A stretch of 64,000 nt of DNA, taken from NCBI RefSeq assembly GCF_013394385.1, contig NZ_AP022834.1, forward strand, positions 868,001 through 932,000, written 5' to 3'. The first letter of the stretch is position 1. Every line of letters begins with the position of its first letter. The position numbers and the translations under genes are program-made. This DNA is from Kocuria sp. TGY1127_2 (lineage in GTDB: Bacteria > Actinomycetota > Actinomycetes > Actinomycetales > Micrococcaceae). Under the pieces are notes generated by a model, which saw nothing but the letters and a program-made list of their open reading frames with translations, made no database searches and was not told the origin of the DNA. Positions 688 to 26,092 of the stretch are shown here, piece by piece.

Positions 688-822
688 CGGACCTTTCTGA
701 AAAGAACTATGGCGTCCGGAGATTACGATACATTTGCCTGTTTCCGGTACAGGCGGTGTGCCTTGTTGCTGTCGCAGGGCCACGCTGAGTCACTCGCCGC
801 GGTCTTTCGGAAGGAGCGTCGC

Positions 823-1500: not shown

Positions 1501-1569
1501 CCCAAGCCCTCGAACTCGACCGGACCCAGCGATGACTGGTTAGCAAATCTATGGAGCCTTAACTGGACT

Positions 1570-1588: not shown

Positions 1589-1648
1589 TCTTCAAGATGA
1601 GACGCGCCTGGCGCGTCGGATCGCCCCTCATGATTCGCTGGAGCCATC

Positions 1649-4670: not shown

Positions 4671-4721
4671 TCGGACGAGCGCACTCGACACGGCCTGCGG
4701 GCCGTAAGAAAGGGGCTCTAA

Positions 4722-5759: not shown

Positions 5760-5867
5760 CAGCTGTGCGGGCGGGGAGTGTCGGAGTTGGTGCGCTCGGC
5801 ATGGACCCTGCTCCTCGCCCGTAGCTTTCTCTTCCCCTCGACGCCGTATTCTTCGGAAAGGACCACC

Positions 5868-11800: not shown

Positions 11801-13016
11801 GCTCACAGGACGAACGTCGTGCACGTCCTCATGGGACTTGCACACGATCATCCTGGGCGGTGAGGTGATGGATCCGGCCGTGGTACGTGACTGGCATCAG
11901 CGTCACCAACCGAGCAGTCCGCAGATCGTCAACATGTATGGAATCACCGAGACGACCGTCCACGTGACCTATATGCCCTTGGACTATGACAGCCTGGAGC
12001 CTGAGAATGGCGGAATCAGTTTGGTCGGCGAACCTATCCCGGATCTCTCCGTCTACCTTCTGGACGAGTTCGGCAATCCCGTCCCGGACGGCGTCGTGGG
12101 AGAAATCCATGTCGGAGGGGCGGGGGTGGCGGCTGGATATACTGCTCGGCCTAAGCTGACCGCGGAACGTTTCGTTCCCGATCCCTTCGCTGCTCGATAC
12201 CCATCCATGCTCGAAGAAGCAGGCTTGCTCCCGAGTCAGGCAAGAATGTACCGAAGTGGCGACTTGGCCGTCCGCAGGCGCGATGGCATCTTGGATTTCC
12301 GCGGGCGTTCGGATCGGCAGATTCAACTGCGAGGATTTCGGATTGAGCCCGGGGAGATCGAAGCGGCGGCTAGGTCTTTGCCGGACGTCGTCTGGGCCCA
12401 CGTGCGTGTTGAGGGAATAGGAACAAACGACGAGCGGCTTGTCCTCCACGTTCTTGGCCCCGATCCAGCAACGGCAGATCCGATGGCTCTGCGACGGCGA
12501 ACGGCAGAGTTGTTGCCTCTTCAGATGACTCCGTCCGCCGTCGTCGTGATTTCCGAGGTACCGCTGACTCCCACGGGCAAGCTCGACGAGGCCGCGCTGC
12601 CGGCACCGGCCGAGCGTCGGAGCCAGGGGCGGCCGCCTCTGGGGGCCTCGGAAAGTATCGTGGCCACATGCTTTGCCGAAACCCTCGGCTTGGAGACGGT
12701 TTCGGCTGAAGACTCATTTTTCGATCTTGGGGGACACTCCATGCTTGCAGTGCCCGCCACCGCTGCAATTTGTGAAGCCACCGGGCAGCATCTGCGTGTC
12801 GGAACGCTGATGGCCTACCCAACTCCTGAGCTGCTGGCCCGCGTTCTTGATGTTGGGGAGGGCTCGCAGAGGTCTGATGCGGACCTCCAGGTACTTCTGC
12901 CGTTGGGTCGTGCCCGCCAACTGAGTCCTTCAAGGAATGGGGGGAGTGTTCTGCATCCATCCGGCAGGCGGACTGTCGTGGTGTTACGCAGGCTTGCCCA
13001 AATTCCTTCCGGATGA
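5868..13016 (+). CDS. Dimodular siderophore peptide synthetase C-A-T-C-A-T (DhbF/EntF type), frame lost before TE
   Basis: A 2382-residue synthetase. Domains: C1 about 33-470 (HHLALDG near 184-190), A1 about 512-1045 (FTSGSTGTPKG), T1 with LGGHSL (Ser1103), C2 about 1188-1640 (HHIAADG, 1314-1320), A2 about 1655-2245, T2 with LGGHSM (Ser2291). The start of C1 (MTPAQQGLWMAHRLS) resembles EntF/DhbF, whose first C domain takes dihydroxybenzoyl from an aryl carrier protein. Read against GrsA, the A2 pocket is DFW-N-I-G-M-V-H-K, the standard threonine code. A1 reads DSS-D-F-G-A-V-D-K, unassigned; Asp at position 278 hints at a basic side chain. The start is ATG 5868 after GGAAAGGA; the GTG at 5778 is not favoured. 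After 12944 the frame departs from homology: the thioesterase continues in the +1 frame. Confidence 0.92.
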   Translation: MNPEAPSAHASLNPERNDSAVEKLAAIQARLSNTYAMTPAQQGLWMAHRLSKDPADLMVSEVTELTGPIDVAAWKRAVAGVLASVPALRMRITATTETGGETCEAEPPGNHAVDACADVPRISLDACPPVPEIVDLSHAQDPAEAARAWIERALNVAPALHRGVVSHACLLVTGPESAQWFLRVHHLALDGFGFSLLSKALAEACTAATADPDSVPDPTTVLPSWDDLDGFCHAIEALSAYEGSQAHSEDRTFWTGQEPEEDVVPVVPRGLSGRSVRTVVDEPKGGWRIDPVLLLGALGLTVMAAGNKEETLIGVHMMGRGDAVLRETPCTAQNMLPVRLTSHPDESVGTYLDRVSQAWREASAHQRFRQETLRFDREVGPGGALVEAELNIVPFNGAVTWGAASGRARPVWDGPVEGLVLDVRAGDSSRSEAVLQTPEGSVDDTGLRGMAEVFGALYEALTRSRRKEEQALLRELPIRRPPQDGAESTASALNILDRPGPFAHHAMERVEGLRIVDLIRHLSQPTSALRGTTSLVHSGSDPIGTGGRLIGPDADLVRTEASVRTHQLARELLACGIVPGDRVAVLTSRNTWGILAPLAVLEVGAAFVPMDAAWPGGRIRAVIAAAKPRAVVIAGDADRTAVADNQPVPMVIDLDDPKTCASLEGRDPSAVTDAERSGAVSEDAVAYVLFTSGSTGTPKGVVVEHRNLDHFMRTVGGLYLPACLRAKDRHQAADKGARRQTEPMVSVHEHSFAFDSGLSPMCTWLLGHTLLVPSEECLREAALHIAAIREHRADIMDISPAVLEHLLDAGFDPGGTDPVTSVFIGGDACSGSLWDRLRKIAGTGVLTANAYGPTENTVDSLVAAICDHDRPSIGHSLPGQFSLVLDGWDRECPTGFPGQLAVAGGSVSRGYLDRLEETDHAFFHMADGTRAYRTGDLVRRERDGALSFLGRADNQLSLRGVRIEPEEVERALLDLPGVRQAVVAVRDAGHGPILVGYVVRGNPLHEGERRRLLASLRNRLPSAMVPTALIRLEALPLTERGKVDRKQLQSLPLRLADYDGRGLGWADMDPVQRRVAKVFGELLGRDPQSLKTDSDLFALGGHSLTAARLVGRLRQYEGGHGPRSTMNGPDLRSVFAAPTIGEIASSLQTHDSVRIGEDADLGVKPLVGSGPDEVERREAGESPSSTNSLTAAQRRLWFLEQLEGPSALYSIPVVLRFPGVFDPEALALALVDTAMRWRNLHCSFPADDEGRPTIREWRREEVEAALRVREAAQSVGNPDLVDALDLVIDVSRELPLRAWRVCADRGEGLVLVLHHIAADGWSLGPVLSTLAAAYRVHASGDASEFAVETGPLLKPIDSCTPQVLIDETRGDRAASDAELEAWKSALSGIPTEIALPSDRERPQIRDRVGGEVRMTLDRAVGKALYSVARAHRLTPHMIFQGVLAALLTRTGAGTDVPIGTISSNRASAAEEEQVAFVANTLVTRTDTSGNPRFEELFERVREESLTMLERSRTPFDEVVRAVAPDRSPSRHPLFQVMLVSQNIGDHAVDFGTDVGVAYPQTLGTGTAKFDLTCEISYAPGDGDKIEIRFEYASDIFDHQTVEDLSTWFEKLLRRAVEHPESRIGDGPLVETAWLTAENEAKRMLEYRALHRAGESESLTEAIERSFEEYADRVAVVGPPSPLDCPFEDPTGEDVASSGQRTELRYADLDTESARIRDCLILRGFGPGDRAALLVERSPRQVTVMLGCLRAGVAYIPLDPGYPIGRLRSTLEDSAPKAVLYAAGDELGTGASLSPEFVDALKASAPEATFIELGSLSDDADGGKAASTRRSVVESCVAQDRVPRPEDPAYIVFTSGSTGRPKGVVVSQANVLRLFRSTQHWFDFSSDDVWTLFHSFAFDFAVWEMYGALLHGGSVVVVPRSISRSPDDFLRLLRKERVTVLNQTPSAFGQLVLAEASVAQDEALAEGQGAQTDVDPGAELTGRTSCTSSWDLHTIILGGEVMDPAVVRDWHQRHQPSSPQIVNMYGITETTVHVTYMPLDYDSLEPENGGISLVGEPIPDLSVYLLDEFGNPVPDGVVGEIHVGGAGVAAGYTARPKLTAERFVPDPFAARYPSMLEEAGLLPSQARMYRSGDLAVRRRDGILDFRGRSDRQIQLRGFRIEPGEIEAAARSLPDVVWAHVRVEGIGTNDERLVLHVLGPDPATADPMALRRRTAELLPLQMTPSAVVVISEVPLTPTGKLDEAALPAPAERRSQGRPPLGASESIVATCFAETLGLETVSAEDSFFDLGGHSMLAVPATAAICEATGQHLRVGTLMAYPTPELLARVLDVGEGSQRSDADLQVLLPLGRARQLSPSRNGGSVLHPSGRRTVVVLRRLAQIPSG

Positions 13017-13830
13017 TCTTCCAGTATGGGGGTTGCAAGCGCGTGGAGTTCTTGATCCCGAGGCCCAGCCTCGATCCCTCGCCGAAATGGCCCGGGACTA
13101 CGTCCAAGCCATCCGGAAAATCCAACCTCACGGACCGTACCACCTGGTGGGGTGGTCGTTGGGCGGAATGGTCGCCCATGTCATGGCTGCGCAGCTGCAG
13201 GCGGCCGGTGCCGAGGTCGGGACGGTCAGCTTGCTCGATGCTTATCCTTCGGAGGCAGAGAGCGGAGTAGGAGAGCCTCCGCTCGACGATGCAGTGTCGG
13301 CAGTTCTTGCGATGGCTGGTCTCGATGACTCCGCATTGGCTGGATGCTCCTGGGAAGGCGCGAGCGAACAAACGGCAATCGTCGAACTGGGCAGAATTCT
13401 CGCCGACGGATCTTCTCCCATGGCAGGGCTCCCAGAAAGGACGCTCGCGGCTCTCGTCAGGACATACCGGAACACAGCCAGAATCTTGCGTGAGTACTCG
13501 CACGAAGACTTCCACGGTGATGTGTTGTTCTTCCGGGCGGCTCGAGCCGGGATCGGACCCGACCATGACCCTCGTGAGTGGAATCGGTTCCTTGACGGCC
13601 GTCTGGACGTTCATGACATCGATTGCACTCATCGGGAAATGACCCAGCCCGGTCCTTTGGCGCAGATCGGGCGGACTCTGGCAGGTCACATCGAGAAGCG
13701 TGGATCACATTCATCAGACCGGGATGAACCTGAGCCACTTCCGGGGGAGCGACGTACAGCTGTATCGGAAGAAGCCACGGGGTGCAGGCCCGGAGCGGTC
13801 GGACCGAACCGCGAAAGGCACCGGCAATGA
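12937..13830 (+). CDS. Thioesterase domain of the synthetase, out of frame with it
   Basis: A 297-codon frame encoding a type I thioesterase domain that releases, and in the EntF/DhbF family cyclo-oligomerises, the assembled siderophore. It opens with the domain's first strand (VFCIHPAGGLSW), has the nucleophile elbow GWSLGG (Ser74), an Asp in LLDAY and a late His in CTHREM. The frame has a TGA at 12922-12924, so joining to the synthetase requires losing one base (or a +1 shift) between there and 12944. The run of six Gs at 12939-12944 is the natural site: with five Gs the sequence reads through as SRNGGVFCIHPAGG. The ATG at 12937 has AAGGA only 1 base away, an implausible independent start. 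The last codon overlaps the exporter start (ATGA, 13827). Confidence 0.8.
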   Translation: MGGVFCIHPAGGLSWCYAGLPKFLPDDLPVWGLQARGVLDPEAQPRSLAEMARDYVQAIRKIQPHGPYHLVGWSLGGMVAHVMAAQLQAAGAEVGTVSLLDAYPSEAESGVGEPPLDDAVSAVLAMAGLDDSALAGCSWEGASEQTAIVELGRILADGSSPMAGLPERTLAALVRTYRNTARILREYSHEDFHGDVLFFRAARAGIGPDHDPREWNRFLDGRLDVHDIDCTHREMTQPGPLAQIGRTLAGHIEKRGSHSSDRDEPEPLPGERRTAVSEEATGCRPGAVGPNRERHRQ

Positions 13831-15332
13831 GCCGGAAAAGTCCAACTCAGGACGCTGTGTCCATGGGTCAATCGAATCAAAAGTGCCCTGTCGTTGCGAT
13901 TATCGTCTATCTGTTGGCGATGGCCCTCAACGGATTCGATGGCACCGTGATCAATCCGGCCTTGCCGGATCTTGCCACGGAGCTCAGCGTCCCTGCCCCC
14001 GCGCTGGGCGCAGTCGAATGGTCTTTCCTCATTGCCTCTGCAGTTACTCTGCCTATGGCAGGCTGGGCCGGAGCGACGCTGGGCACGCGCCGAACCTTCG
14101 TATGCTGCCTGGCCGTCTTCGCCACAGGATTGCTGATAGCGATGCTTGCACCAAGCCTCGAAGTCCTGGTCTTAGGCCGTGCAGTTCAGGGTGCTGGCTC
14201 CGGGATTCTCGTACCTGTTGGCCTGGCAATGATGTACCGAGGAGCCACGGGTGAACAGAGACTCCGCATTGCCAGGATCACTCTGGTTCCTCTGACAATT
14301 GCACCAATGCTCGGACCAGTACTTGGGGGAATGATTGTCCAGCACTTGGGGTGGCGCTGGATTTTCGGAGTTATGTTTCCTTTGGCGGTGCTTACCACGT
14401 TGGCTGCGTTGATGCTACTGACGCCGGCCAGACTCGGTTCCGAGCCTGACCAGGAACCTTTGTCGCCCTCGGACAATCAACTGAAATCTGGATCAGGGAA
14501 GCCGAAAGGCAAATTCGATGTTTACGGACTAATCACGGGCTGTCTCTCCTGCGGAGCGTTGGCTATCGGAGGCCCGCTGCTGGTTGCCGGTCTCGACCCG
14601 GGTGGACCTGTCCAAGTCGGGGCTGTTGCTCTGGCGGCTGCACTCACGCTTATCGGCGCACTCGGAGTGTTTGGTGCAGTTCGTCGTACCCGACGGGTCT
14701 GCCGACCGGCCTTTGACCTTGGTCTTTTTCGGTTGCAGACATATCGCACCGGATCTTGGATCGTCTCCTGCGCCTCGGCGGGTCTCGCAGGGTTCCTTGT
14801 CGCACTGCCTCTGGTACTTGGCGGGCGTGGAGTACCGCCGCACGAGATCGGCTTCATGATGTTTCCGGAGACATTGGGCTTGCTCGTGGGCGGTCAGATC
14901 ATGCTCCATCTCAAATCGCGGTTCGGAACGCGACCCGTGGTGCTCGCAGGTTCTGTTGGCGGCGGATTCCTCGCATTAGCGGCGTTGATCTTTTCACCCA
15001 TTGCTGGGGGTTGGGGCACGGCCGTGCTCATGCTTTGCTTCGGGGTGGCCCTGAGCCAAACCGTGCTACTGACCCAGGGTGCGGCATTCTGGGAGATAGA
15101 GGCGCATCGGACCGATGCCGCGACCTCCCTGTTCATGGTGCAGCGTTCATTGTTCAGCGGCTGGGGAGTAGTCGTCGTCACTACTGCCATGGGATGGAGC
15201 TCCGGAACTTATCCGATGGTATCCGGAGCTTTGGCTGGCTGCGCTGTACTTCTTCTTGTTCTGCTCACGATCCCTGCGACCTTGCGCATTCCGTGTGCTG
15301 TATGGGACCGAGCGACGGGTCCTCAGGAGTGA
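13827..15332 (+). CDS. MFS exporter, DHA2/EmrB-QacA type, probable siderophore exporter
   Basis: A 501-residue membrane protein with a start ATG at 13827 that overlaps the thioesterase stop (ATGA) and an AAAGG site about 8 bases upstream. The first helices contain the DHA2 signature LNGFDGTVINPALPDLA and a GAGSGILVPVGLAM motif. A GPVLGGMIVQHLGWRWIFG stretch after helix 5 is typical of EmrB/QacA drug-proton antiporters, usually with 14 helices. A hydrophilic loop of about 40 residues (EPDQEPLSP...) sits in the middle. Being last in the siderophore operon and coupled to the synthetase, it most likely exports the newly made siderophore (the EntS-like role); substrate is inferred from context. 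Confidence 0.88.
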   Translation: MSRKSPTQDAVSMGQSNQKCPVVAIIVYLLAMALNGFDGTVINPALPDLATELSVPAPALGAVEWSFLIASAVTLPMAGWAGATLGTRRTFVCCLAVFATGLLIAMLAPSLEVLVLGRAVQGAGSGILVPVGLAMMYRGATGEQRLRIARITLVPLTIAPMLGPVLGGMIVQHLGWRWIFGVMFPLAVLTTLAALMLLTPARLGSEPDQEPLSPSDNQLKSGSGKPKGKFDVYGLITGCLSCGALAIGGPLLVAGLDPGGPVQVGAVALAAALTLIGALGVFGAVRRTRRVCRPAFDLGLFRLQTYRTGSWIVSCASAGLAGFLVALPLVLGGRGVPPHEIGFMMFPETLGLLVGGQIMLHLKSRFGTRPVVLAGSVGGGFLALAALIFSPIAGGWGTAVLMLCFGVALSQTVLLTQGAAFWEIEAHRTDAATSLFMVQRSLFSGWGVVVVTTAMGWSSGTYPMVSGALAGCAVLLLVLLTIPATLRIPCAVWDRATGPQE

Positions 15333-15432: not shown

Positions 15433-15462
15433 ATGACAAGAACCGCGAAAAGACAGTAAACT
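15433..15462 (+). promoter_or_regulatory. Probable sigma-70-type promoter of second iron locus
   Basis: ATGACA (15433-15438) and TAAACT (15457-15462) are separated by 18 bp and lie just upstream of the binding-protein gene at 15501. The iron box at 15462-15480 begins in the -10 hexamer, a classic repressor placement. Confidence 0.5.
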
Positions 15463-15480
15463 GAGGGTAGCCATATCAAG
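15462..15480 (+). promoter_or_regulatory. IdeR/DtxR-like iron box before second iron locus
   Basis: TGAGGGTAGCCATATCAAG matches the IdeR/DtxR consensus at 12 of 19 positions, with the central GGxTAGCC core preserved. It overlaps the -10 element at 15457-15462 and ends 20 bp before the ATG of the binding-protein gene, so iron-loaded IdeR should block initiation. Confidence 0.5.
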
Positions 15481-15500
15481 GGATAAGGGAACGGTTAATA

Positions 15501-16535
15501 ATGAATCACTCGGCGCGTCGGCGTGATCGCACTCCACGGAATCGTTTGAGGCCGGTCATCGCCCTGGTGGTCGCGGTGATTACCATGGTGTGCCTCACCG
15601 GATGCGGCGTCTTCGCCTCAGGCGGGCACTCCGAAAATACTTCCGAGCGCGTGGTCAAGGACATCGATGACGCCGAGGTGCGCGTGCCGGAGAAGCCGAG
15701 TCGCGTTGTCGCGCTGTCCGAGCCCACCCTGGACGCGGCCCTTGCGCTGGGCGTCACCCCGGTGGGCACCGTCTCCGGCCGTGGACAGAATTCCGTCCCG
15801 GGATATCTGGCGGAAAAGGCCAAGGACATTCCTCTGGTCGGCGGCATCGGGGACTTGGACTACGAGAAGATCTCCAGCCTCAAGCCCGACCTGATCATCG
15901 TTGACGGGACCAGCGTGAACAATAGACCGGACGTCTTGGAGATCCTGCGTCAGATAGCTCCGTTGGTCTTCTGCGGTTACGCCGGCGGTCCGTGGGAGCT
16001 GAACTTCGATACCGCTGCCCGCGCGCTGAACCTGGAAACAAAGGGTGAGGAAGTCAAGACTGCTTTCCGGGACAAGATCGAACAGGGCAAGGCTCGCCTC
16101 GCACCGATTTACGGGGACAAGACCTTCTCGATCGTTCGGTGGCAGGGCAGTGGTCCGTCTCTGATTCTCAAAGAACTTCCGGCGGGCCAGGTTTTGGAGG
16201 GGCTCGGCCTGAAGCGGCCGCAATCCCAGGACCGTGAGGGGAGGGGACATTCGGATCCAGTCTCCCTGGAGAACCTCGCGACCATCGACGCGGACTACCT
16301 GTTCTTCGGAACGCTAGGCGGCGCTAGCCAGGCGAATCCGCACTCGGACTCCACTGCCGACCGGGACGGTGCCGTCCAGGCGCTCAAGACGGCCGAGGAG
16401 ACCTCGGGCTTCACCGACCTGTCCGCCTACAAGAACCACCACATCATCACCGTCGATGGATCCCGTTGGACCTCAACCGGCGGCCCGTTGCTGATGAACG
16501 GCATCGTCGACGACATTCTCGCCGAGCTCCCCTGA
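15501..16535 (+). CDS. Iron-compound-binding lipoprotein (FecB/FhuD type)
   Basis: A 344-residue substrate-binding lipoprotein. The N-terminus is arginine-rich, followed by a hydrophobic segment and the lipobox LTGC near residue 35. The mature part shows the cluster A-II binding-protein pattern: KPSRVVALSEPTLDAALALGV, the DLDYEKISSLKPDLIIVD segment and a C-terminal TGGPLLMNGIVDDI. AAGGGATAAGGGA precedes the ATG. It shares little sequence with the lipoprotein at 4722, so it probably has a different ligand. It heads a locus with two Ig-like surface proteins and its own permeases and ATPase, which suggests it takes the ligand from those surface proteins and hands it to the permeases at 19968 and 21026. 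Confidence 0.88.
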   Translation: MNHSARRRDRTPRNRLRPVIALVVAVITMVCLTGCGVFASGGHSENTSERVVKDIDDAEVRVPEKPSRVVALSEPTLDAALALGVTPVGTVSGRGQNSVPGYLAEKAKDIPLVGGIGDLDYEKISSLKPDLIIVDGTSVNNRPDVLEILRQIAPLVFCGYAGGPWELNFDTAARALNLETKGEEVKTAFRDKIEQGKARLAPIYGDKTFSIVRWQGSGPSLILKELPAGQVLEGLGLKRPQSQDREGRGHSDPVSLENLATIDADYLFFGTLGGASQANPHSDSTADRDGAVQALKTAEETSGFTDLSAYKNHHIITVDGSRWTSTGGPLLMNGIVDDILAELP

Positions 16536-16609
16536 GCGACCAAGTCGGCCGGGGTCACTTGAGCGGCTCCGGCACCTTTCCTGCCAGTAATCGAAGAACT
16601 CCATAACCC

Positions 16610-18931
16610 ATGATGAATATCGGATCCTCTCGCACCATCGCCCGCTCTCGCTCGCACACCAGGGTACTCCTCTCGCTCCTGCTCGCTCTGCTCCTGGTCC
16701 TGACCGCATGGCTGGTCCTTCCCGGTGCCGCGGCCGACGACGCATCGAACAGACAGTCCGTTAAGACCAATGAACAAACCGCCGAGGTCTCCGGGCCCCG
16801 GACGGTCGACGTCGAGGGCAAGATCCGCGTTGAAGGCAGAGGTTGGAAGAATTCCGTCGCCGGGGGAGCGCGGATCGCCGTGAAATACGACAAAGGCACC
16901 GTGGCCGTGAACGGCGAGAGCGTCGTCAGCGAATTCGAGGCCGGCCCCGATGGAACCTTCTCCGCAGAGCTGCCTTTCCCCACGAAGGGGAACTCGGACA
17001 AGCCATGGCTCCCTGGTACCAACCACATGATCCACTTCTTGAGCGGAAGCCTCAAAGACGGTGACCTGCCACGCAACGCCGTTCTGAAGGTATCGGTGTC
17101 CGGAAAAGCCGGGTCGCCCGCTTCAGAGCTGCCGTGGGTTTCTGCGACGTCGTCGGCGGATTCCGGCGCGCCGGCAACCATCGACGTCGCGCCCTTCACC
17201 ACCGGGGAAGACTCCACGCTGCACCTGGTCGGCAAGGGATGGAAGACGGCAGACGGAAAGTCCGGCTCCATCGTGTCGATCAAGGTCAACTACCAGGCAC
17301 CATCCGGGCGCATCGACCAATACTCCCGTGGCGACCAGGCCATCAGCGATCATCTGGCCTCTCTCGGGAAATCCAAGGATCCGACCTCTTGGGTTCTTCT
17401 CATCCCGAAGGGTTCGGGCCCCGAGGACCCCGAACACGGCCTGTACACGATCGACCCGACGGGATCCTTCGACATCACCGTCAAAGCTCCCGACGAGTTG
17501 CGCCGGGGCAAGACCGGGCAATACATGACCATCACGGCGCAGTCCGGCCGGAACCTTGACGGGGATGTGCAGCGTCGAGCCGTCACCGCGCCGATCCCGG
17601 TCAATGGAAAGGCGGCCGAGCCCATTCAGGAAATCTCGGACGTCCAATGCACCACGCAGGCGAGCCGGCCCACCGCACGAATAGAGAACAAGACCATCGC
17701 CCGCGGTGAGAAGGTCCATCTGGTCGGCGAGGGATGGTGCAACCCCGGTGGCCAGACGGGGGCCCCTAAGGTCGCGGTGAAACTGGATGACGGCGCGATC
17801 TCCCGACGGGACGAAGAAATTCACTCCAACAAGACCATCTGGGCACTCGTCGATCCTGACCCGTCCACCGGGGTCCTCGACACATGGATCGCCCTGCCGG
17901 ATGGAACGACCTCTACATCGTCACCCGCGTTCTCCGAAGGCGGCCACACCCTGCGCCTTCTTTCGGGCTCCCTCCGCCCTGGCGATCTCTCCATGAGCTT
18001 TGGTGGCCGAGGCGTCCTCGACTTCACGTTAGGCGAGTACCGTCCCAACGATGCACCGCCCGCGCTCGGACTCGATGAACTCTCGGAGGGCTCGCGCCGG
18101 GGCGTCCGGGTGAACCGCGAGGGCACGCGGATCACGGTCGAAGTGCCCGGTGGTCAACCCAGGCAATGGGTCAGGGCCACCCCTTACGCCGAGGCAGCGC
18201 CTCGTAGCCAGTGGGGCAACGGCTGGACCCGCCTGGATTCGAACCGCTCTTTGAGCTACGACCTGCCCGACGACGCGGTGGCGGGCGACTACCGCCTCGT
18301 GGTCCAGAGCGGAGAGAGCGAGGACTTCGGAAGCTTGCTGGGTTGGGATCTGCTCACGATTCCCGAAAGCCACGGAAACTCACAGGCTGGTGCCGGCCCT
18401 GTCAATGACAATCGCGCTCAAGGGTCGACGGTGCCGCGGCAGCCCCGGGAAAACGCGGCAACGGTGTCCGGCAACGAGTCTCGATCGGAGCAGACGAGCG
18501 CTTCCGCCGCGGCCCCCGTGAGCGCTGCGGCCGTACGTGAGATGACGAACCTGGGCCGGGTCCAGGACCAGAACCCGCGCCACGCCCGAGTGCTCCGCGT
18601 GCTCCGAGCCCCTGCTCCGGCCACACACTCCTTGGGGCATCAACCCCAAGGGCCCGCCAAACGTGTTGCGGCCGCGCTCCAGGAATCCCCGAAGGCCTCT
18701 CACCACACGGCAAGCCCCTCGGTCTCCCCGTCTGCTCGGAGCCAGGCGCGGAACTCGCAGGACCGGGAATTTCAGGAGCAGAGCGCGGACGGGCAGGAAG
18801 CAACGTTCATCCATAAGGTTTTCACCTGGAACAACGTGCTGCTCGCACTCGCCGGGGCACTTCTTCTGGCCGTGATTCTGTACTCGACTCGCAAGCCATC
18901 CGATCCTACTTCGGAGACTTCAGAGGAATAA
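16610..18931 (+). CDS. Large exported surface protein with repeated Ig-like domains and C-terminal membrane anchor
   Basis: A 773-residue protein. A signal peptide (hydrophobic run about 18-38, GAAADD cleavage area) leads to four domain-sized units: about 40-165 (GRGWKN, VAVNGES, FLSGSLKDGD), about 187-335 (GKGWKT), about 350-475 (GEGWCNPGG, VAVKLDDG, LLSGSLRPGD) and a degenerate unit about 477-585. A Ser/Ala/Pro/His-rich linker (600-730) follows, then one membrane helix at about 738-757 and a short charged tail. The first and third units match a domain in the beta-propeller protein at 23075. Two cysteines flank the third unit. It has no sortase motif. It lies between the binding lipoprotein and ABC permeases of an iron-regulated locus; a ligand-capture role at the envelope is inferred. 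I do not recognise a named family, and see no NEAT or HtaA signature. Confidence 0.75.
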   Translation: MMNIGSSRTIARSRSHTRVLLSLLLALLLVLTAWLVLPGAAADDASNRQSVKTNEQTAEVSGPRTVDVEGKIRVEGRGWKNSVAGGARIAVKYDKGTVAVNGESVVSEFEAGPDGTFSAELPFPTKGNSDKPWLPGTNHMIHFLSGSLKDGDLPRNAVLKVSVSGKAGSPASELPWVSATSSADSGAPATIDVAPFTTGEDSTLHLVGKGWKTADGKSGSIVSIKVNYQAPSGRIDQYSRGDQAISDHLASLGKSKDPTSWVLLIPKGSGPEDPEHGLYTIDPTGSFDITVKAPDELRRGKTGQYMTITAQSGRNLDGDVQRRAVTAPIPVNGKAAEPIQEISDVQCTTQASRPTARIENKTIARGEKVHLVGEGWCNPGGQTGAPKVAVKLDDGAISRRDEEIHSNKTIWALVDPDPSTGVLDTWIALPDGTTSTSSPAFSEGGHTLRLLSGSLRPGDLSMSFGGRGVLDFTLGEYRPNDAPPALGLDELSEGSRRGVRVNREGTRITVEVPGGQPRQWVRATPYAEAAPRSQWGNGWTRLDSNRSLSYDLPDDAVAGDYRLVVQSGESEDFGSLLGWDLLTIPESHGNSQAGAGPVNDNRAQGSTVPRQPRENAATVSGNESRSEQTSASAAAPVSAAAVREMTNLGRVQDQNPRHARVLRVLRAPAPATHSLGHQPQGPAKRVAAALQESPKASHHTASPSVSPSARSQARNSQDREFQEQSADGQEATFIHKVFTWNNVLLALAGALLLAVILYSTRKPSDPTSETSEE

Positions 18932-18950
18932 GGAAGGAATCGAAACCATC

Positions 18951-19961
18951 ATGATCAGCTCGCACTTCCATCGGTCACTCATGGTCCTGTGGACCGTGGT
19001 TGGCGTTCTCCTGCTGGGGATCACGGCATCCTCTGCGCTTCCGCCGGGCGGCGCGAAGAGTAGCACGCAGGGTACCTCGTCTTCCGTCTCGCCGGGCATG
19101 CTCAAAGCCGGTGACACCATCCACTTCACCCTGACCGGATTCCCAAAGAACGAGCAGGTCTACGTCAAGATCGACAACGGCAATGCATGTCCCGCCGACG
19201 CCGCTCAGGGCGCGTGCGTGGTTCACCAACAGAAATCAGATGGCAGCGGCCGCGTGGACGGCTCGTTCATCCTGCCGAAGGACCTGAAAGATGGCAAGCA
19301 CACCCTCCGTTTCCTGGCCACGGAGCTCCTACCGGGCAAGGGAAGCAAGGGTTTCACCAACATCAGCCCGGAATTCACCACGGCCGGGGTCAACCAGAAC
19401 TCCTCGGGGGGTCACCGCTATAACGTCACGTCGGAAGACATTCTCTCCGGAGGCACGCGGCAGGATGCAGGATCCGGCGATCATGCGGCGAATCACGGGG
19501 GCAATGGCGAAGGATCGTCCGGGAACGGGCAAGGACCGAACCTCAGCCAGCCCGGGGAGCAGACCGGGGGAGCCGGTGAGAACGGCCGGGGCGACGACGC
19601 GATCGAGTATGTCGATGCCGACGGCCACCCGATCTCCAAGGAAGAATACGACCGGCTGATGGCCGGGTCCTCGGGCGCAGGCGACGAGTCCGGCTCGGAG
19701 CATCACGACGGCGCAGAGAACAAGAACGCGGAGAGCGGAAAGAGCGACGACGCCAAGGACAAGTCGAAGCGCACGGCAACGGCGAGCCCGGGTGCCACAG
19801 CCAAGAAAACCGGGGGCCACGCCGAGAACGCTTCGACCGAAACCAAGAAAGATTCCGTTGAATTCCCCTGGGTTGGCACCATCGCTTTCGTTGTCATGGC
19901 CCTGATCGCCGCGACCGTCTGGTATGTCCGACGCCGTCGCGCCACGACTCAGAAATCCTAG
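18951..19961 (+). CDS. Exported surface protein with one Ig-like domain and C-terminal membrane anchor
   Basis: A 336-residue protein with a signal peptide (hydrophobic run about 9-28), then a compact domain about 32-148 (LKAGDTIHFTLTGF..., YVKIDNGNACPAD..., a second Cys in GACVVHQ, then DGKHTLRFLATELLPG). That order of strands and the HTLRFLxxxLLPG ending recall the Ig-like domains of the neighbouring 773-residue protein, more loosely. A long linker rich in Gly, Asp, Glu and Ser follows (150-295), then a membrane helix at about 303-322 and RRRRATTQKS at the cytoplasmic end. AAGGAAGGA lies 9 bases before the ATG and the gap to the preceding gene is only 19 bp, so it is in the same operon. Function is unassigned; a membrane-proximal relay partner is plausible. 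Confidence 0.7.
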   Translation: MISSHFHRSLMVLWTVVGVLLLGITASSALPPGGAKSSTQGTSSSVSPGMLKAGDTIHFTLTGFPKNEQVYVKIDNGNACPADAAQGACVVHQQKSDGSGRVDGSFILPKDLKDGKHTLRFLATELLPGKGSKGFTNISPEFTTAGVNQNSSGGHRYNVTSEDILSGGTRQDAGSGDHAANHGGNGEGSSGNGQGPNLSQPGEQTGGAGENGRGDDAIEYVDADGHPISKEEYDRLMAGSSGAGDESGSEHHDGAENKNAESGKSDDAKDKSKRTATASPGATAKKTGGHAENASTETKKDSVEFPWVGTIAFVVMALIAATVWYVRRRRATTQKS

Positions 19962-19967
19962 GCGGCG

Positions 19968-21029
19968 GTGCGAGGTGATCATCCCTCTCGTGGCACTGCC
20001 ATCGTGGTCGACTCCATGACGGTCTCGGATGGGCGGCGGCATTCGCTGGGTCGAGTCGTCTGGTGCGGACTCTTCGGGGTCTGTGCGGTGGCGTCCGTTC
20101 TTGCCTCGCTGCGCTTCGGATCCAACGGGCTGACCGGTTCCGACGTCGCCGAAGTCTTCCGCGGGGCAGGCTCGGCTACTGCCCGCACCATCGTGATGGA
20201 ACAGCGGATACCCCGTACCCTGCTGGGTCTCCTCTGCGGGGCGGCCCTCGGAGTCGCGGGCTCCCTGATGCAGTCGCTGACGCGCAACCCCCTGGCGGAA
20301 CCTGGGCTGATGGGTGTCAACTCGGGCGCCTCCGTCGCCGTCGTGCTGTCCGTGGTGCTGTTCGGGCCGCTGAACATCCACCTCTACATGCTCGCGGCGC
20401 TCGTGGGAGCGGCCGTAGCCGGCGCCGGGGTCTTTGTCCTAGGCCGTGGGGAAACGGGATCGATTGTTCGCCTTGCGCTCGCGGGTGTTGCTCTCTCCGC
20501 GGCTCTGGCCGCGGTCAACCAGGCGTTGGTCCTATCCAACCGGGACGCCTTCGACGAGTTTCGACTCTGGGTCGCTGGCTCCCTTGAGGGGCGGGACATC
20601 GCGATCGTGGAGTCGGTCGGCCCCATGATTGCGCTCGGGCTGATTCTGGCCGTTGCCGTGGGCCCTTCGATCAATGCCTTGGCCCTTGGGGAGGAATCCG
20701 GCGTCGCACTCGGCGTCCGACTCGTCAGGACGCAGACGATCACCTTGGTCTCCGTGGCCCTGCTGACGGGGGCGGCCACCGCGGCCATGGGCCCGGTGGC
20801 CTTTGTGGGACTGGCCGTCCCATTCGTGGTCCGCCGGGCGGTGGGCAATGACGTCCGATGGGTCAACGCCGGGTCCCTCCTTCTGGGGCCCGCATGGCTG
20901 CTGGCGGCGGACGTCCTGGCCCGTATCGTCATCGCACCGCAAGAGACGCAGGTAGGAATCATCGCGACCCTGGCCGGAGGCCCTTTGTTCATGGCGATGA
21001 TGTCCGGTCGGCGGGTGAGGTCCCTGTGA
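19968..21029 (+). CDS. FecCD-family iron-compound ABC permease (first subunit of second system)
   Basis: A 353-residue BtuC/FecCD-family permease with MEQRIPRTLLGLLCGAALG, MQSLTRNPLAEPGLMGVNSG and GPVAFVGLAVPFVVR as family markers. GTG 19968 is used as the start, 6 bp after the preceding stop. No strong Shine-Dalgarno precedes it, and an ATG at 20016 is an alternative that would still keep all helices, so the N-terminus is uncertain. Its closest relative in the window is the permease at 1649, in the same first position of its set. The next permease begins in its stop codon (GTGA). Confidence 0.88.
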   Translation: MRGDHPSRGTAIVVDSMTVSDGRRHSLGRVVWCGLFGVCAVASVLASLRFGSNGLTGSDVAEVFRGAGSATARTIVMEQRIPRTLLGLLCGAALGVAGSLMQSLTRNPLAEPGLMGVNSGASVAVVLSVVLFGPLNIHLYMLAALVGAAVAGAGVFVLGRGETGSIVRLALAGVALSAALAAVNQALVLSNRDAFDEFRLWVAGSLEGRDIAIVESVGPMIALGLILAVAVGPSINALALGEESGVALGVRLVRTQTITLVSVALLTGAATAAMGPVAFVGLAVPFVVRRAVGNDVRWVNAGSLLLGPAWLLAADVLARIVIAPQETQVGIIATLAGGPLFMAMMSGRRVRSL

Positions 21030-22108
21030 GCGCGACAACGAACCGTCGGGGAATCGGCAAAGGACCGTTCCGAAAGGACCTCTCGGGCCGTTCCGTCCTC
21101 TCGGTGAGGCGGGGCATCAGCGCGGACATCCCGGTTCGCCAGCTGGTCGTGCACCTGATTCTCGTCCTGGTGGTGGTGACGGTCTCGGCCTGGGCCATGA
21201 CACAGGGCGAACGGGACCTCGGCCCCTCGGGCGTGTACCAGGCACTCATGGGCAGGGGAGACCGGCTCGATATCTACTTCGTGAACCAGGTCCGGTTGCC
21301 CAGGGTGGTCGCCGCGATCGGGGTGGGCGCCGCGCTGGGTCTTTCTGGTGCGATCTTCCAGGTTCTTTCCGGCAACGCCCTGGGCAGCCCCGACGTCATC
21401 GGCTTCACCCATGGTGCGGCCACGGGAGCGTTGTTGCAGATCCTCGTGTTCGACGCCGGTCCACTCGGTGTCGCGTCCGGAGCGATCCTGGGCGGATTCG
21501 GCACGGCCCTCGTGGTGTACCTGTTGACCAGGCGCACCGGGCTGCGAGGATACCGACTCGTTCTGATCGGAATTGGCACCGGAGCCACGTTGGGCGCGGT
21601 CAACTCGCTCCTGGTGGTTCGGGCTTCGTTGACGCAGGCGCAGACCGCAGCCTCCTGGCTCGCGGGATCTCTGAACACCATGAATTGGAGCAAAACGCTC
21701 CTGATTGCGGCCGGGCTCCTGATTCTGACCCCGCTCCTGATGAAGGCTTCCAGGCCGATGGCGATGCTCCGGTTCGGGGACCAACTCGCCGTCGGGAGGG
21801 GGATACGGGTCAACGGGTGGCGAGTGACCGGGATGTTCGTGGGAGTGCTCCTGGTCGGTCTGGCCACCTCGATCACCGGCCCGCTGGCCTTCGTGGCACT
21901 GGCGGCCCCGCACATCGGCAGGAGCCTGACCCCCTCGCGCGGCGCAGGGCTGATCACCGCGGCACTCATGGGGGCGGTAACCGTCCTCTGCGCGGATGTG
22001 GCGGGCCAGTATCTCCTGCCCGTTTCGCTCAACGCGGGCGTGGTGACCGGCGCGTTGGGCGGCCTGTATCTGGTGTACCTGATCATCATGGAACGGAGGA
22101 GAGCATGA
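21026..22108 (+). CDS. FecCD-family iron-compound ABC permease (second subunit of second system)
   Basis: A 360-residue BtuC/FecCD-family permease. After a basic leader of about 38 residues come the helices, with RLPRVVAAIGVGAALG, VLSGNALGSPDVIGF and GPLAFVALAAPHIGR as markers. The start is GTG 21026, overlapping the previous stop (GTGA), with GTGAGG upstream. An in-frame extension back to 20858 would lie within the previous gene and is rejected. It corresponds to the permease at 2725. The ATPase gene follows with an ATGA overlap. Confidence 0.9.
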   Translation: MSATTNRRGIGKGPFRKDLSGRSVLSVRRGISADIPVRQLVVHLILVLVVVTVSAWAMTQGERDLGPSGVYQALMGRGDRLDIYFVNQVRLPRVVAAIGVGAALGLSGAIFQVLSGNALGSPDVIGFTHGAATGALLQILVFDAGPLGVASGAILGGFGTALVVYLLTRRTGLRGYRLVLIGIGTGATLGAVNSLLVVRASLTQAQTAASWLAGSLNTMNWSKTLLIAAGLLILTPLLMKASRPMAMLRFGDQLAVGRGIRVNGWRVTGMFVGVLLVGLATSITGPLAFVALAAPHIGRSLTPSRGAGLITAALMGAVTVLCADVAGQYLLPVSLNAGVVTGALGGLYLVYLIIMERRRA

Positions 22109-22914
22109 ACGAAACGACGGCTCGTCGGAGCAGATTGCGCGCCGAAGGGATCACCGTGGGCTACGGGCAGGACGCGGTGCTCCCTGGGATTGACTTCGAG
22201 GTTCCCGACGGCGAGCTAACGGTGATCCTGGGGCCGAACGCCTGTGGAAAGTCCACTCTGCTCAAGACGCTGTCACGGGTGCTGACTCCATCCGCGGGAA
22301 AGATCTTCCTGGACGACGCCGCCATGGACAAGAGCCGTACCAAGGACATTGCCCGGGTGTTGGCGATGCTGCCGCAAACCCCGGAGGCTCCCTCGGGGGT
22401 GAGCGTCGCCGACGTCGTCGCTCGTGGGCGTTACCCGCATCAGTCGCTGTTGCGTGCGTGGACCGATGAGGACGAACGCGCGTGTGTCGACGCGATGACA
22501 GCGGCGAATGTTCTGTCACTCAGAGAACGGTCCTTGGAAGCACTTTCCGGCGGGCAGCGCCAGCGGGTCTGGATCGCGATGACGTTGGCCCAGGACACAC
22601 CCTTGATCTTGCTCGATGAGCCCACCACTTACCTGGACATCACTCACCAGGTCGAGGTGCTCAATCTGACTCGCCGACTCCATGGCACGGGCCGAACGAT
22701 CGTCATGGTTCTCCACGACCTCAACCTCGCCTTTAGGTATGCCACCCGACTCGTCCTGATGCGGGACGGAAGGATCATCTCCCAGGGAAGGCCCCGTGAG
22801 ATCGTCGATGCCGCCCTGATCCGCGACGTGTTCGACCTCGACGCCTTGGTCGTGGAAGACCCCGTGACCGGTGCGCCCCTGGTCGTCCCCGAGGAAAGCA
22901 CATTGCAACGATAA
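22105..22914 (+). CDS. Iron-compound ABC transporter ATPase (second system)
   Basis: A 269-residue ABC ATPase with Walker A GPNACGKST, Q-loop MLPQTP, signature LSGGQRQR, Walker B ILLDEPTTYLDI and H-loop VLHDLN, ending in DPVTGAPLVVPEE. It is strikingly similar to the ATPase at 3855, which suggests the two import systems are paralogous. The start is ATG 22105 in the stop of the permease gene, with a strong GGAGGA site. Two IdeR-like boxes follow immediately after the stop codon and belong to the next gene. Confidence 0.93.
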   Translation: MNETTARRSRLRAEGITVGYGQDAVLPGIDFEVPDGELTVILGPNACGKSTLLKTLSRVLTPSAGKIFLDDAAMDKSRTKDIARVLAMLPQTPEAPSGVSVADVVARGRYPHQSLLRAWTDEDERACVDAMTAANVLSLRERSLEALSGGQRQRVWIAMTLAQDTPLILLDEPTTYLDITHQVEVLNLTRRLHGTGRTIVMVLHDLNLAFRYATRLVLMRDGRIISQGRPREIVDAALIRDVFDLDALVVEDPVTGAPLVVPEESTLQR

Positions 22915-22915
22915 C

Positions 22916-22934
22916 TAAGGTTACCTTAAGCGCG
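22916..22934 (+). promoter_or_regulatory. IdeR/DtxR-like iron box, first of a tandem pair
   Basis: TAAGGTTACCTTAAGCGCG, starting 2 bp after the ATPase stop codon. It holds the near-palindrome TAAGGTTACCTTA and matches the IdeR consensus at 12 of 19 positions. It covers the likely -35 region of the beta-propeller gene. Confidence 0.55.
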
Positions 22935-22949
22935 AGAGTAGGTTAGCTT
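22921..22949 (+). promoter_or_regulatory. Possible promoter of beta-propeller gene, embedded in iron boxes
   Basis: TTACCT (22921-22926) and TAGCTT (22944-22949) with 17-bp spacing. Both hexamers are only moderate matches, but each lies inside one of the two iron boxes. Confidence 0.35.
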
Positions 22950-22956
22950 TAACACG
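22938..22956 (+). promoter_or_regulatory. IdeR/DtxR-like iron box, second of a tandem pair
   Basis: GTAGGTTAGCTTTAACACG contains the uninterrupted core AGGTTAGC of the IdeR/DtxR consensus and matches 12 of 19 positions. It is centred 22 bp from the first box, about two helical turns, so two IdeR dimer pairs could bind the same face of the DNA. It overlaps the likely -10 element of the gene at 23075. Confidence 0.6.
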
Positions 22957-23074
22957 TACCAAGGGTTGTCGTTGTGATAATCCGGTCCGGTTTCTGCGAA
23001 TGCGGCAAACGAACCGATATTCCCGCCGACGGCTCATGGACATCAATCGCATCCAGAAAACTATGAGGATCACT

Positions 23075-25624
23075 ATGTTTTCTTACAACAATTTCCGCCC
23101 TCGAGGATTCAAGGTATGGGCGACTGTCTCTGCGGCAACGGCCCTGACTTTCGCGGGCACGCTCACGGCGGCGCAGGCAGACGGGGTGGGCGCCGCAACG
23201 GCTCCGGCTCACGGTGCAGCCTCGGCAGCGTGCGAGTATCGCAGCTTCGATGTCCGTGCTGAGCAGACCCAAGGCCTGCCGGGACAGTACCAGCTGGCGT
23301 ATTCGAAGAAGAATGACGCTCTCTGGGCCACCGGTACGGCCCTTGGCGGGGCCAACACCACGGCCACTCTTGCCAAGATCGACCCGCAGACCATGAAAAT
23401 CGAGAAGACCGTTGCCCTGGACACCGTGCCGTATATTCCGAGGGGCGGGACTGAGGTTGCTGGTGTTCAGCTCAAGGGGCCCTTCGGGATCGATGTGGAC
23501 GATGTGAACAACACGGTATGGGTGACCAACACCATTGCGAACGAGGTCACCGCTTATGACCAGGCCACCTTGAAGGAGGTCTTTTCGACCTCCAGGCTTT
23601 CGCCCGAGGAGCGCGCGAAGGTTGAATTCACCCATCCACGCGAGGTTCGCATCGCAGACGGTAAAGCCTTCGTTGGCGTTCGGGGTTCGGTGGTGGTCTT
23701 CGATACAAAGACCTACGCATTCCTGCAGAAGATCAACGTGGCCGATGTCGAGGACAGGGCCACGACCGTCATGAATATGTGGGTGGACGAATCTGAAGGG
23801 AAGGCTTACTTCCCGGTCCGTATGAGGGATGAGGTCAAGATCTACGACCTGAAAGACCTCTCGAAGCCGATTCAGGTGGTCAAGCTCCATAAGCATGATC
23901 CCGAGGCCAATCTCTACGCCTCCGACGTCGTGGCGGATCACTCGCTCAATGAAATCTATGTCTCGTCCCAGGGCGACAAAGGGAAGAACTCCGGTGTGGG
24001 TGTCTATGACAAGACCACGGGCGAGTTCAAGAAGTGGATCGATCTTGGTGGAAGGGCGCTGTCTCTGGACGCGGATGAGGACAACGACGTCGTTTACCTC
24101 ACTGATTTCGACGGCAAGTCTCCTGACAGGGGTGTATATGTGATTGACGGCCGCACCCACACCGTCGCCGCTATCGTTCCCAAAAATTCCGTGGACGCTC
24201 CCTTCGGTGTTAACGACGTGATTGTGACCCCCAAAGGTGTGTTCGCCGTCGACAAGGGTGGGGCGTACAAGAACGCGGAAGTGCCCTTCACCATCGATTA
24301 CCGGACCGGAAAGTTCACCACCTCCTCGACGTCCGTTTTGGGCGTGCAGAACAAGGCAACTGAGGGCGCACCCGCTGATTGGCAGCCCGCCGAGCCGACC
24401 CCGATCAACGCGGACACTCTCGTCAAGCTGACCGCAACGTCAACCGGAACCGTCAATGGCCAGAACAAGGGTGCATCAGGCGCCGATGCAAGCGTCAAGA
24501 CCGTCGAGTCCAAGCAAGACGCAGGGGCCAAGGTCACGGGGGCCACCGTGGTCTCCGAGGGGCAGGCCATCAAGGTTTCGGGAACGGGGTGGAAGCACCC
24601 GAATGGAACCGGAGGGTCCACGGTGGCCGTCAAGTACGACAAGGGTACGGTTTCCATCGATGGCAATGCAGTGATCGCAACCGTCGAGGCGGACGCCCAG
24701 GGGAACTGGGAGATGAACCTGCCGTATCCGACCACGGCAAACTCCACCGTCAAGGAAGGCGCCTGGGGTCCCGGAACAACGCACACGCTTTCCTTCCTCT
24801 CAGGCTCCCTCAAAGAGGGCGACGCGAGCCGTGGCGCGAACTTCCAGATCAGCGTCGCACAACCGACGTGTGATACACCCGAAGCCAAGCGCGTGACCCC
24901 GACGACGAAGGTGTTCCAGGGGTACGGCACTCTGGTTGACTCGAAGGTCGGCGAGATGGTGCCTCCTCCGACCGACCCGGTAAAGCAGGACCCGTCGCCA
25001 AGCCCGGCCCCGACCGACCCGGTAAAGCCGGGCCCGTCGCCAAGCCCGGCCCCGACCGACCCGGTAAAGCAGGACCCGACGCCAAGCCCGGCCCCGACCG
25101 ACCCGGTAAAGCAGGACCCGACGCCAAGCCCGACCCCGACCGACCCGGTAAAGCAGGACCCCGGCGTCGGAAATGAAGGCCCGGGCTCGGGGCAGAAGGC
25201 GCCTGGCGCTGATGGGGCAGATAAGGAACCCGGTCAGCTGGGTTCCGGAGCCCCGTCAGGGGAGACCGGAAAGGATGACGGAATGAAGAGCGGAAGAGGG
25301 CCCGCCGCCACTGGTGATCCTGCAGATGCCGGTGACGCTGGCGAGAAGGCTCCGGCAAGCATCGCTGATCACGATGAAGCCGGCGCCGGCGCCAACAGCC
25401 CGACCGGCAACGAATCGGCCTCGGGCTCTCAGGGCCAGACCGCAACAAGCGGGACGGGGGTGAACTCTCAGACCCCGGCCGTCTCGAAGGGTTCCGCACC
25501 CGCCACGCAGTCCGGCCTGGCCAGCACTGGAGCCGGCAAGCTGATGTGGGTTGCCGGCCTGGGCGCGGCGGCCACGGCTGCCGGCACCGCGGTGGTGGCT
25601 CTTCGGCGCAAGAAGGCGCACTGA
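23075..25624 (+). CDS. Sortase-anchored beta-propeller (YncE-like) surface protein with Ig-like domain
   Basis: An 849-residue exported protein. Signal peptide about 1-36 (RPRGFK, hydrophobic core, TAAQA). Residues about 50-440 form a beta-propeller of YncE/SMP-30 type, with repeated blades ending in DxxxNxVWVTN, DESEGKAYFP, DHSLNEIYVSS and DEDNDVVYLTD. An Ig-like domain follows at about 490-600 (GTGWKH, VAVKYDKG, FLSGSLKEGD), shared with the 773-residue protein at 16610. Then come PTDPVKQDP repeats, a Gly/Ala/Ser-rich wall linker, and the signal LASTG, a hydrophobic run and RRKK, as in class E sortase (LAXTG) substrates. The start is ATG 23075 after GAGGA; an ATG at 23063 is also in frame. 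Tandem iron boxes precede it. E. coli YncE is likewise iron-repressed, which supports a link to iron; the ligand is unknown. Confidence 0.82.
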   Translation: MFSYNNFRPRGFKVWATVSAATALTFAGTLTAAQADGVGAATAPAHGAASAACEYRSFDVRAEQTQGLPGQYQLAYSKKNDALWATGTALGGANTTATLAKIDPQTMKIEKTVALDTVPYIPRGGTEVAGVQLKGPFGIDVDDVNNTVWVTNTIANEVTAYDQATLKEVFSTSRLSPEERAKVEFTHPREVRIADGKAFVGVRGSVVVFDTKTYAFLQKINVADVEDRATTVMNMWVDESEGKAYFPVRMRDEVKIYDLKDLSKPIQVVKLHKHDPEANLYASDVVADHSLNEIYVSSQGDKGKNSGVGVYDKTTGEFKKWIDLGGRALSLDADEDNDVVYLTDFDGKSPDRGVYVIDGRTHTVAAIVPKNSVDAPFGVNDVIVTPKGVFAVDKGGAYKNAEVPFTIDYRTGKFTTSSTSVLGVQNKATEGAPADWQPAEPTPINADTLVKLTATSTGTVNGQNKGASGADASVKTVESKQDAGAKVTGATVVSEGQAIKVSGTGWKHPNGTGGSTVAVKYDKGTVSIDGNAVIATVEADAQGNWEMNLPYPTTANSTVKEGAWGPGTTHTLSFLSGSLKEGDASRGANFQISVAQPTCDTPEAKRVTPTTKVFQGYGTLVDSKVGEMVPPPTDPVKQDPSPSPAPTDPVKPGPSPSPAPTDPVKQDPTPSPAPTDPVKQDPTPSPTPTDPVKQDPGVGNEGPGSGQKAPGADGADKEPGQLGSGAPSGETGKDDGMKSGRGPAATGDPADAGDAGEKAPASIADHDEAGAGANSPTGNESASGSQGQTATSGTGVNSQTPAVSKGSAPATQSGLASTGAGKLMWVAGLGAAATAAGTAVVALRRKKAH
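24968..25162 (+). repeat. 42-bp tandem repeat encoding PTDPVKQDPSPSPA
   Basis: Four full 42-bp units and one 27-bp partial unit, in frame in the wall-spanning linker of the beta-propeller protein. Units differ by a few substitutions (KQDP/KPGP, S/T). Such a repeat can change copy number by slippage without breaking the frame. Confidence 0.9.
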
Positions 25625-26092
25625 TCTGGCGACGCGCTGAGTGCACCTCGCGCAGTCCTCTGATGGCGCACAATATCGGGGCCGAGGCGGTTCGCAATGA
25701 CCCGCCACGGCCCCGGTCGTCGTCTCAACCGACGGAGAGGTGATGAACGTCAAGTACCTCCCGTCGTTGTGGCTTATCTGGCCCTGTTCGGGGGAGTTGC
25801 CCTGTGGTAGCCTTGATTACTTGTGTGGGTCGACTCGGCCTGCGCGCAACCACGGATTTTTCGTGCCAGTGCATAATGCCGCTGTCAACGGGTGCATGCG
25901 CCCGCCATCGAAGCGGGACCAGATGTTCCTGGCATGGACAGTCCCAGGCGCAACCGCCAACTTCCATTCCTGATGAAATGGCAGACCGGTGCGTCAATCA
26001 TCCCGAACACAGTGTTCCGCAAGGCCCGCGTCGCGTCAGTCAGAGATCTTCTGGCGGCGTCGTGAGAACCGGCGAGACGACAGGAGTATTCA
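25625..26092. other. 468-bp non-coding gap between iron locus and ribosomal cluster
   Basis: It holds the hairpin at 25678-25714 and, in its right part, the presumed leader and promoter of the rplN operon. TTGCCC at 25797-25802 could be a -35 element, but no convincing -10 lies at the right distance. I see no tRNA or conserved open frame; short frames here lack recognisable content. Confidence 0.5.
25678..25714 (+). terminator. Hairpin after beta-propeller gene
   Basis: GGGGCCG-A-GGCGG pairs with CCGCC-A-CGGCCCC across an 11-base loop, with one A/A mismatch. No long T run follows, so it is a terminator of the type common in GC-rich actinobacteria or an mRNA-stabilising stem. Confidence 0.6.

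Follow-up and report, generated by a model that had tools for sequence, protein, structure and literature searches.

Why does an operon for iron import also encode three surface proteins? The question is raised by a locus of Kocuria sp. TGY1127_2 (genome of 2.997 Mb) within the 64,000-nucleotide stretch analysed here, positions 868,001-932,000 of NZ_AP022834.1, hereafter the window. A lipoprotein of putative siderophore-binding type (SBP2), two exported proteins of 773 and 336 residues with C-terminal membrane anchors (S773 and S336), two FecCD permeases, an ATP-binding cassette (ABC) ATPase and a beta-propeller protein with a predicted sortase signal (PROP) are encoded there on one strand, in this order. 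We propose, with a probability of roughly 0.5, that the locus is an importer of ferric tricatecholates (enterobactin-type siderophores) in Rothia, in which immunoglobulin-like (Ig-like) domains shared by S773, S336 and PROP would pass the siderophore inward to SBP2. An earlier note on this DNA had described a lipoprotein, surface proteins of 773 and 336 residues, FecCD/FecCD/ATPase genes and an 849-residue LAXTG propeller on the same strand, all of which we confirmed at their positions, and had read them as an iron-ligand relay. Its observation was partly confirmed and its interpretation partly supported; what comes in addition is the presence of enterobactin-type neighbours in relatives and of one domain common to all three surface proteins. 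We call the group of genomes compared Rothia; the named relatives of PROP returned by a protein search were Kocuria sp. 36 and Rothia koreensis JCM 15915, the latter of which has the locus.

The genes were located on the plus strand at 15501..16535 (SBP2), 16610..18931 (S773), 18951..19961 (S336), 19968..21029 and 21026..22108 (FecCD permeases 1 and 2), 22105..22914 (ATPase) and 23063..25624 (PROP). Gene starts are approximate, that of permease 2 being taken from orthologues and that of the ATPase from its ABC domain. From SBP2 on, the intergenic spacing is 74, 19 and 6 bp, followed by two overlaps and then by a leader of ~150 bp before PROP. The four importer proteins all scored above the Pfam gathering thresholds (Peripla_BP_2 at 1.5e-22 for SBP2, PF01032 at 2e-78 and 1.4e-68 for the permeases, PF00005 for the ATPase). 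The iron-uptake operon of the earlier note is supported. SBP2 has a hydrophobic stretch at residues 14-42 and a lipobox LTGC. Its best PDB profile match was YfiY (3tny, 7.4e-32), and SirA and enterochelin-uptake binding proteins matched too; this similarity points to a protein of the siderophore-binding type. The best NCBIfam matches of the ATPase were FecE and the enterobactin ATPase, each under its cut-off.

We mapped the locus by BLAST in 18 Rothia genomes, namely the 17 out of 35 matching S773 and G014, picked by its ligase and importer. The S773 count is circular, most loci having been chosen through their S773 match, and the relatives are akin to each other. The gene order was SBP2-S773-S336-FecC-FecD-ATPase, and the ABC and surface genes, whose conservation together the earlier note had left to be checked, were co-conserved. 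FecC, FecD and the ATPase were found in 17/18 genomes (the contig of G015 ends after S773), SBP2 likewise in 17/18 (the contig of G007 begins inside S773). S336 is the steadiest accessory gene, with 17/18 genomes, or 17/17 assessable loci once the contig end of G015 is set aside, including G014 without S773. No S773 appeared in the BLAST map of G009; its position is taken there by an 816-residue protein that contains the shared domain three times and was counted as a diverged S773. PROP comes immediately next in 10/17 genomes (after the ATPase in 4 and after EntF in 6), and in 2/17 (G001 and G009) it flanks the cluster on the opposite side. Judged by gene order, S336, and usually also S773 and PROP, travel with the importer.

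Genes for an enterochelin esterase, a dihydroxybenzoate (DHB)-AMP ligase and an EntF-type nonribosomal peptide synthetase (NRPS), in the order Fes-EntE-EntF, immediately follow the ATPase in 13 of the 17 assessable genomes, this placement in G010 spanning two contigs of unproven linkage. Their matches in L059 were all below the curated cut-offs (NF007758 at 2.9e-51, TIGR02275 at 2.2e-176 and NF007605 at 2.5e-150, respectively). Some loci also carry isochorismate synthase and isochorismatase genes, and isochorismate synthase TIGR00543 was above its cut-off in L062. In the ATPase tree, the window's SBP2 system fell into a 17-leaf clade (support 0.88) with enterobactin-cluster importers, and the importers belonging to the genome's other two siderophore clusters fell outside it; tree and gene order together indicate that SBP2-FecCD-FecCD-ATPase is orthologous to the importer within the enterobactin-type clusters of other Rothia. 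Because of these genes directly behind the importer, a ferric tricatecholate rather than haem is most likely the ligand. The choice among haem, a xenosiderophore and a self-made siderophore, left by the earlier note, is narrowed accordingly, ferric catecholate being far likelier than haem given the enterobactin-type cluster in most relatives with the importer.

The association was also seen at the scale of the genus. Calling a DHB-AMP ligase from a match above 500 bits (a threshold of our own, since none reaches the curated cut-off), we found both S773 and the ligase in 16 of the 35 genomes, S773 only in 1, the ligase only in 5 and neither in 13 (Fisher p 8e-5, relatedness uncorrected). The sole genome with S773 only, G015, is 65% complete and has an adjoining isochorismate synthase. 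R. mucilaginosa produces enterobactin, according to the available part of PMC7190385. The Rothia enterobactin clusters, as presented in the parts of PMC7190385 and PMC13347742 accessible to us, have EntE/EntF- and Fes-type genes and ribosomal flanks in common with the loci mapped here, the importer lying in the cluster in 13/17 of them; the window differs in having no biosynthesis genes next to the importer. In the main text of PMC7190385 the words 'surface' and 'ABC transporter' occur 0 times, and the same holds for 'surface protein', 'LPXTG' and 'transporter' in that of PMC13347742. Between the ATPase and PROP of the window, Fes-EntE-EntF are absent. The genome has an EntF/EntE/EntC/isochorismatase-like cluster with an esterase at C1:2.05-2.08 Mb, which also holds the gene usually found between the isochorismatase-like and EntC-like genes. 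The most economical history has the biosynthesis genes lost or moved from this spot and the importer and surface genes left in place.

What the surface proteins have in common is one homologous Ig-like domain of ~110 residues, present in three copies in S773 and in one copy each in S336 and PROP. The 'two-component Ig-like' surface proteins of the earlier note hold for S773 and S336, but the description was too narrow since PROP carries the domain too. S773 has hydrophobic stretches at residues 15-43 and 737-762 and comprises copies A (residues 50-168; 16757..17113, plus strand as for all features below), B (172-336; 17123..17617) and C (346-478; 17645..18043), followed by a domain D (480-592) that is FN3-like by a weak model. 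Profile comparison placed the PROP copy at residues 500-628 (in the numbering of its 874-residue open reading frame, ORF; 24497..24883). With hhalign, copy A reached 99.9% to the PROP domain and copy C 99.6% to A and 99.7% to PROP, while column-shuffled control profiles reached 7.5% at most. Copy B, longer and the most divergent, gave 95.7-97.1% to A, C and PROP and not above 20% to the S336 domain. An HMM (hidden Markov model) built without S336 recovered S336 in two genomes, G030 (5e-4) and G019 (3e-4 and 7e-4), and missed the window's own S336. The lysine of a VKxD motif and the histidine of a GxHxL motif recur across the domain copies and may equally be structural. Beside these proteins, G008 encodes two adjacent small LAXTG proteins with one copy of the shared domain each (L043:9494-12101); no importer relative was found nearby.

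S336 has hydrophobic stretches at residues 6-31 and 302-327, carries its shared domain at residues 30-150, and its gene ends 6 bp ahead of the first permease gene. No convincing relative was found in samples taken outside the genus. In its N-terminal domain K73, H92, H117 and R120 (window numbering) are kept in 15/15 aligned sequences, and we offer as a suggestion only that they could hold an anionic ferric catecholate.

PROP, of 849 residues when counted from the ATG at 23075, consists of a propeller (~80-480 in ORF numbering), the shared domain, a proline-rich spacer and a C-terminus that meets the predicted sortase-substrate pattern: a LASTG motif (25517..25531), a hydrophobic stretch and an RRKK tail, with profile scores under cut-off, including that of the LAVTG model NF058582. 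The propeller matched the PDB profile of E. coli YncE (3vgz) at 2.4e-20, best over profile positions 68-270. Against the single-protein NCBIfam model of YncE it reached 48 bits. As this is far under the equivalog cut-off of 400, PROP is, by profile similarity, a distant relative of YncE and not an equivalog. In G001 and G009, paralogues of the propeller or proteins related to it (L036, L037, L038, L039 and L042) end in SLH-like repeats and not in LAXTG. PF00395 was found in 3/15 PROP-type members, and related ectodomains are thus anchored in two ways within the genus. The graded anchoring noticed in the earlier note is borne out by these sequence features, which place the shared domain at different predicted depths: wall-linked in PROP, membrane-anchored in the long S773, and membrane-anchored in the short S336 next to the lipoprotein.

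Iron boxes were scored against a consensus of 19 positions from work on DtxR/IdeR, with p values relative to shuffled sequence. The earlier note had placed IdeR-like boxes at both promoters. Those of the window are weak: the box before SBP2 (15462..15480) scored 13/19 (p 0.053 and 0.057), and before PROP two box-like sequences, one with TAAGGTTACCTTAA (22916..22934) and a second at 22938..22956, reached 13/19 (p 0.167). Better boxes occur at the same positions in many relatives. With the window counted in, at least 14/19 positions matched before SBP2 in 12/16 loci (p at most 0.01 in 9/16, best 18/19) and before PROP in 8/12 loci (p at most 0.01 in 6/12, best 17/19). The best iron-box match in the window is a palindromic box-like sequence at 1570-1588 (15/19), ~80 bp before the first FecCD gene.

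In the mechanism that we propose, the cell's own enterobactin-type siderophore would be exported and bind iron, and the shared-domain copies of PROP and S773 would catch all or part of the ferric siderophore at the wall. PROP may serve as an outer capture or processing protein, missing from some species, and S773 as a middle carrier. S336, held at the membrane and encoded beside the permease, would be the last accessory before SBP2, to which it would hand the siderophore. By their families, SBP2, the FecCD permeases and the ATPase would then carry out the import and the Fes-type esterase would free the iron. A bolder version, possible but on balance unlikely, makes the system a Rothia-specific siderophore counterpart of Isd, in which neocarzinostatin-like Ig domains would carry ferric enterobactin from the sortase-anchored propeller to S773, then to S336 and to the lipoprotein. 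Neocarzinostatin-type apoproteins (PF00960) are secreted chromophore carriers. The resemblance of the shared domain to them is sub-significant or at noise level: PF00960 matched 7/24 copies with E values no higher than 1 (best 0.0023). In the window, the copy in PROP reached 15.5 bits, under the cut-off of 25, and no PF00960 match was obtained for the S336, S773 A and S773 C copies.

Several known systems resemble the locus in part. The domain reused in the staphylococcal Isd system is NEAT. As in Isd, one domain is reused in sortase-anchored and deeper proteins before a lipoprotein and ABC importer (PMC7139808, in the part available to us); here, in contrast, there is no NEAT, the neighbours are siderophore genes, and two of the three surface proteins are held by a C-terminal helix. 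The SBP2 and FecCD architecture is common to SirABC, Hts, Fhu, SstABCD and YfiY, the Gram-positive siderophore importers. In Hta/Hmu/Cht, the corynebacterial haem system with the HtaA/CR domain, exported proteins with membrane anchors likewise accompany an iron-type ABC importer and DtxR-type boxes, of which our locus has candidates, but the domain of our locus is unrelated to HtaA by profile comparison and the Rothia HtaA loci are separate. E. coli YncE shares propeller homology and, putatively, iron regulation with PROP and is periplasmic, being found in supernatants too (PMC5120174, available part); PROP differs by its predicted wall anchoring and its fusion to the shared domain.

A number of observations weigh against an inward relay of an enterobactin-type siderophore. 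Support for S336 from the HMM spans two genomes only, which makes the bolder version, the siderophore counterpart of Isd, slightly less likely. Profile searches, proposed in the earlier note together with structure prediction, yielded the shared domain and the YncE match, but the structure models were of low quality (pLDDT, predicted local distance difference test, of 43.5 and 55.4). S773 has fewer copies of the shared domain in several genomes and is missing from G014, where S336 directly follows SBP2; in 5/17 assessable genomes the stretches retrieved around the cluster showed no PROP, and the EntF region of G001 is broken into several ORFs. In the window genome, G005, G030 and G028, the importer has no biosynthesis genes next to it, the EntE/EntF cluster located elsewhere in each has its own permease and ATPase, and the boxes upstream of SBP2 score lowest (12-13/19), so the ligand could there be another catecholate. 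Copies of the shared domain are found, too, in Rothia surface proteins that end in LAXTG or SLH and are encoded away from importers, and the domain may therefore be a general surface module.

This last observation is the strongest argument for a possible, though on balance unlikely, alternative in which the ABC genes import a ferric catecholate and S773, S336 and PROP serve, under iron regulation, as adhesins or as scaffolds of the wall, their repeated domain being a structural Ig-like spacer. The placement of S336 just before the permease gene and its retention in all assessable loci, even without S773, speak against it, as does the recurrence of the VKxD lysine and GxHxL histidine, possibly structural positions though they are. 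We consider it improbable that the surface proteins handle the siderophore without relaying it inward, either by retaining the exported siderophore at the wall or by acting on the trilactone, PROP being then a lactone-acting or sensing propeller. Such handling would suit a YncE-type propeller placed last, behind EntF, in six relatives, E. coli YncE being reported as Fur-regulated and DNA-binding with an unclear role in iron (PMC5120174, available part), but a Fes-type esterase is already present in the relatives' operon. A haem relay like Hta/Hmu or Isd shares the graded anchoring and finds some support in the HtaA proteins of the genus (19/35 genomes, elsewhere than at this locus), in the sub-threshold match of SBP2 to the IsdE model (18.6 bits, cut-off 298.65) and in those of 3/15 PROP-type proteins to the cytochrome-D1 haem domain, which is also a propeller (best 5.4e-6). 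It nevertheless seems very improbable. Pfam scans of the locus proteins and aligned orthologues detected neither NEAT nor PF04213 (HtaA), and profile scans of the surface proteins detected no haem-binding domain above its curated cut-off. HtaA reached at most 1.8% by hhalign against the shared domains (positive control 100%), in line with the absence of NEAT and HtaA signatures stated in the earlier note. Moreover, 3/17 S773 genomes have no HtaA and the neighbours are enterobactin-type genes. The window genome has one HtaA match, outside the window (C1:775947-776342, 55 bits, cut-off 24).

The whole iron region interrupts a ribosomal-protein operon between rpsQ and rplN. In L063, rpsQ (S17) is followed by one 210-residue ORF, the locus and rplN (L14), the two ribosomal genes being at L063:7912-8184 and 19535-19906. 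In the window, rplN-like and rplX-like ORFs start at 26093 and 26468 and rplE at 26803, with L2 and S3 genes upstream. Ribosomal flanks have been noted for enterobactin-like clusters of other (Antarctic) Rothia in the accessible part of a 2026 paper (PMC13347742). PROP-type genes next to ribosomal genes, with the remainder of the cluster absent, were seen in G009 (S3 confirmed) and, by ORF lengths only, in G008, G019 and G001. In G032 (L086:8042-11042) an esterase and DHB-AMP ligase pair lies at a ribosomal-looking site (by ORF pattern), where no EntF, SBP2 or S773 was found, and is perhaps a remnant of the cluster. Directly upstream of the SBP2 locus, window positions 1-15332 hold a second siderophore cluster: from left to right, a minus-strand esterase (PF00756), a FecCD/FecCD/ATPase/SBP1 importer, a two-module NRPS with a thioesterase, and a major facilitator superfamily exporter. 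The thioesterase (12937-13830) is out of frame with the NRPS ORF (5778-13016), which it overlaps by 80 bp; the frame is either genuinely broken or disrupted by an error in the sequence. A relative of this cluster in G017 (L087) adjoins genes resembling those for EntE, EntC and isochorismatase, so the product of the upstream cluster is probably another DHB-type siderophore.

Stepwise wall relays have been described for haem (Isd, Hta), whereas Gram-positive siderophore importers, those of S. aureus among them, are described in the available part of the review PMC7139808 with lipoprotein, permease and ATPase alone. Titles and abstract openings of the literature, subscription papers being mostly beyond this scope, mentioned no wall-anchored siderophore relay and no Rothia surface proteins of this kind. 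The operon offers a small, directly testable set of proteins, beginning with S336 because it is kept in every assessable locus. Members of the genus, common commensals of the mouth and airways, may employ wall proteins dedicated to retaining or capturing enterobactin, a matter relevant to how they compete for iron.

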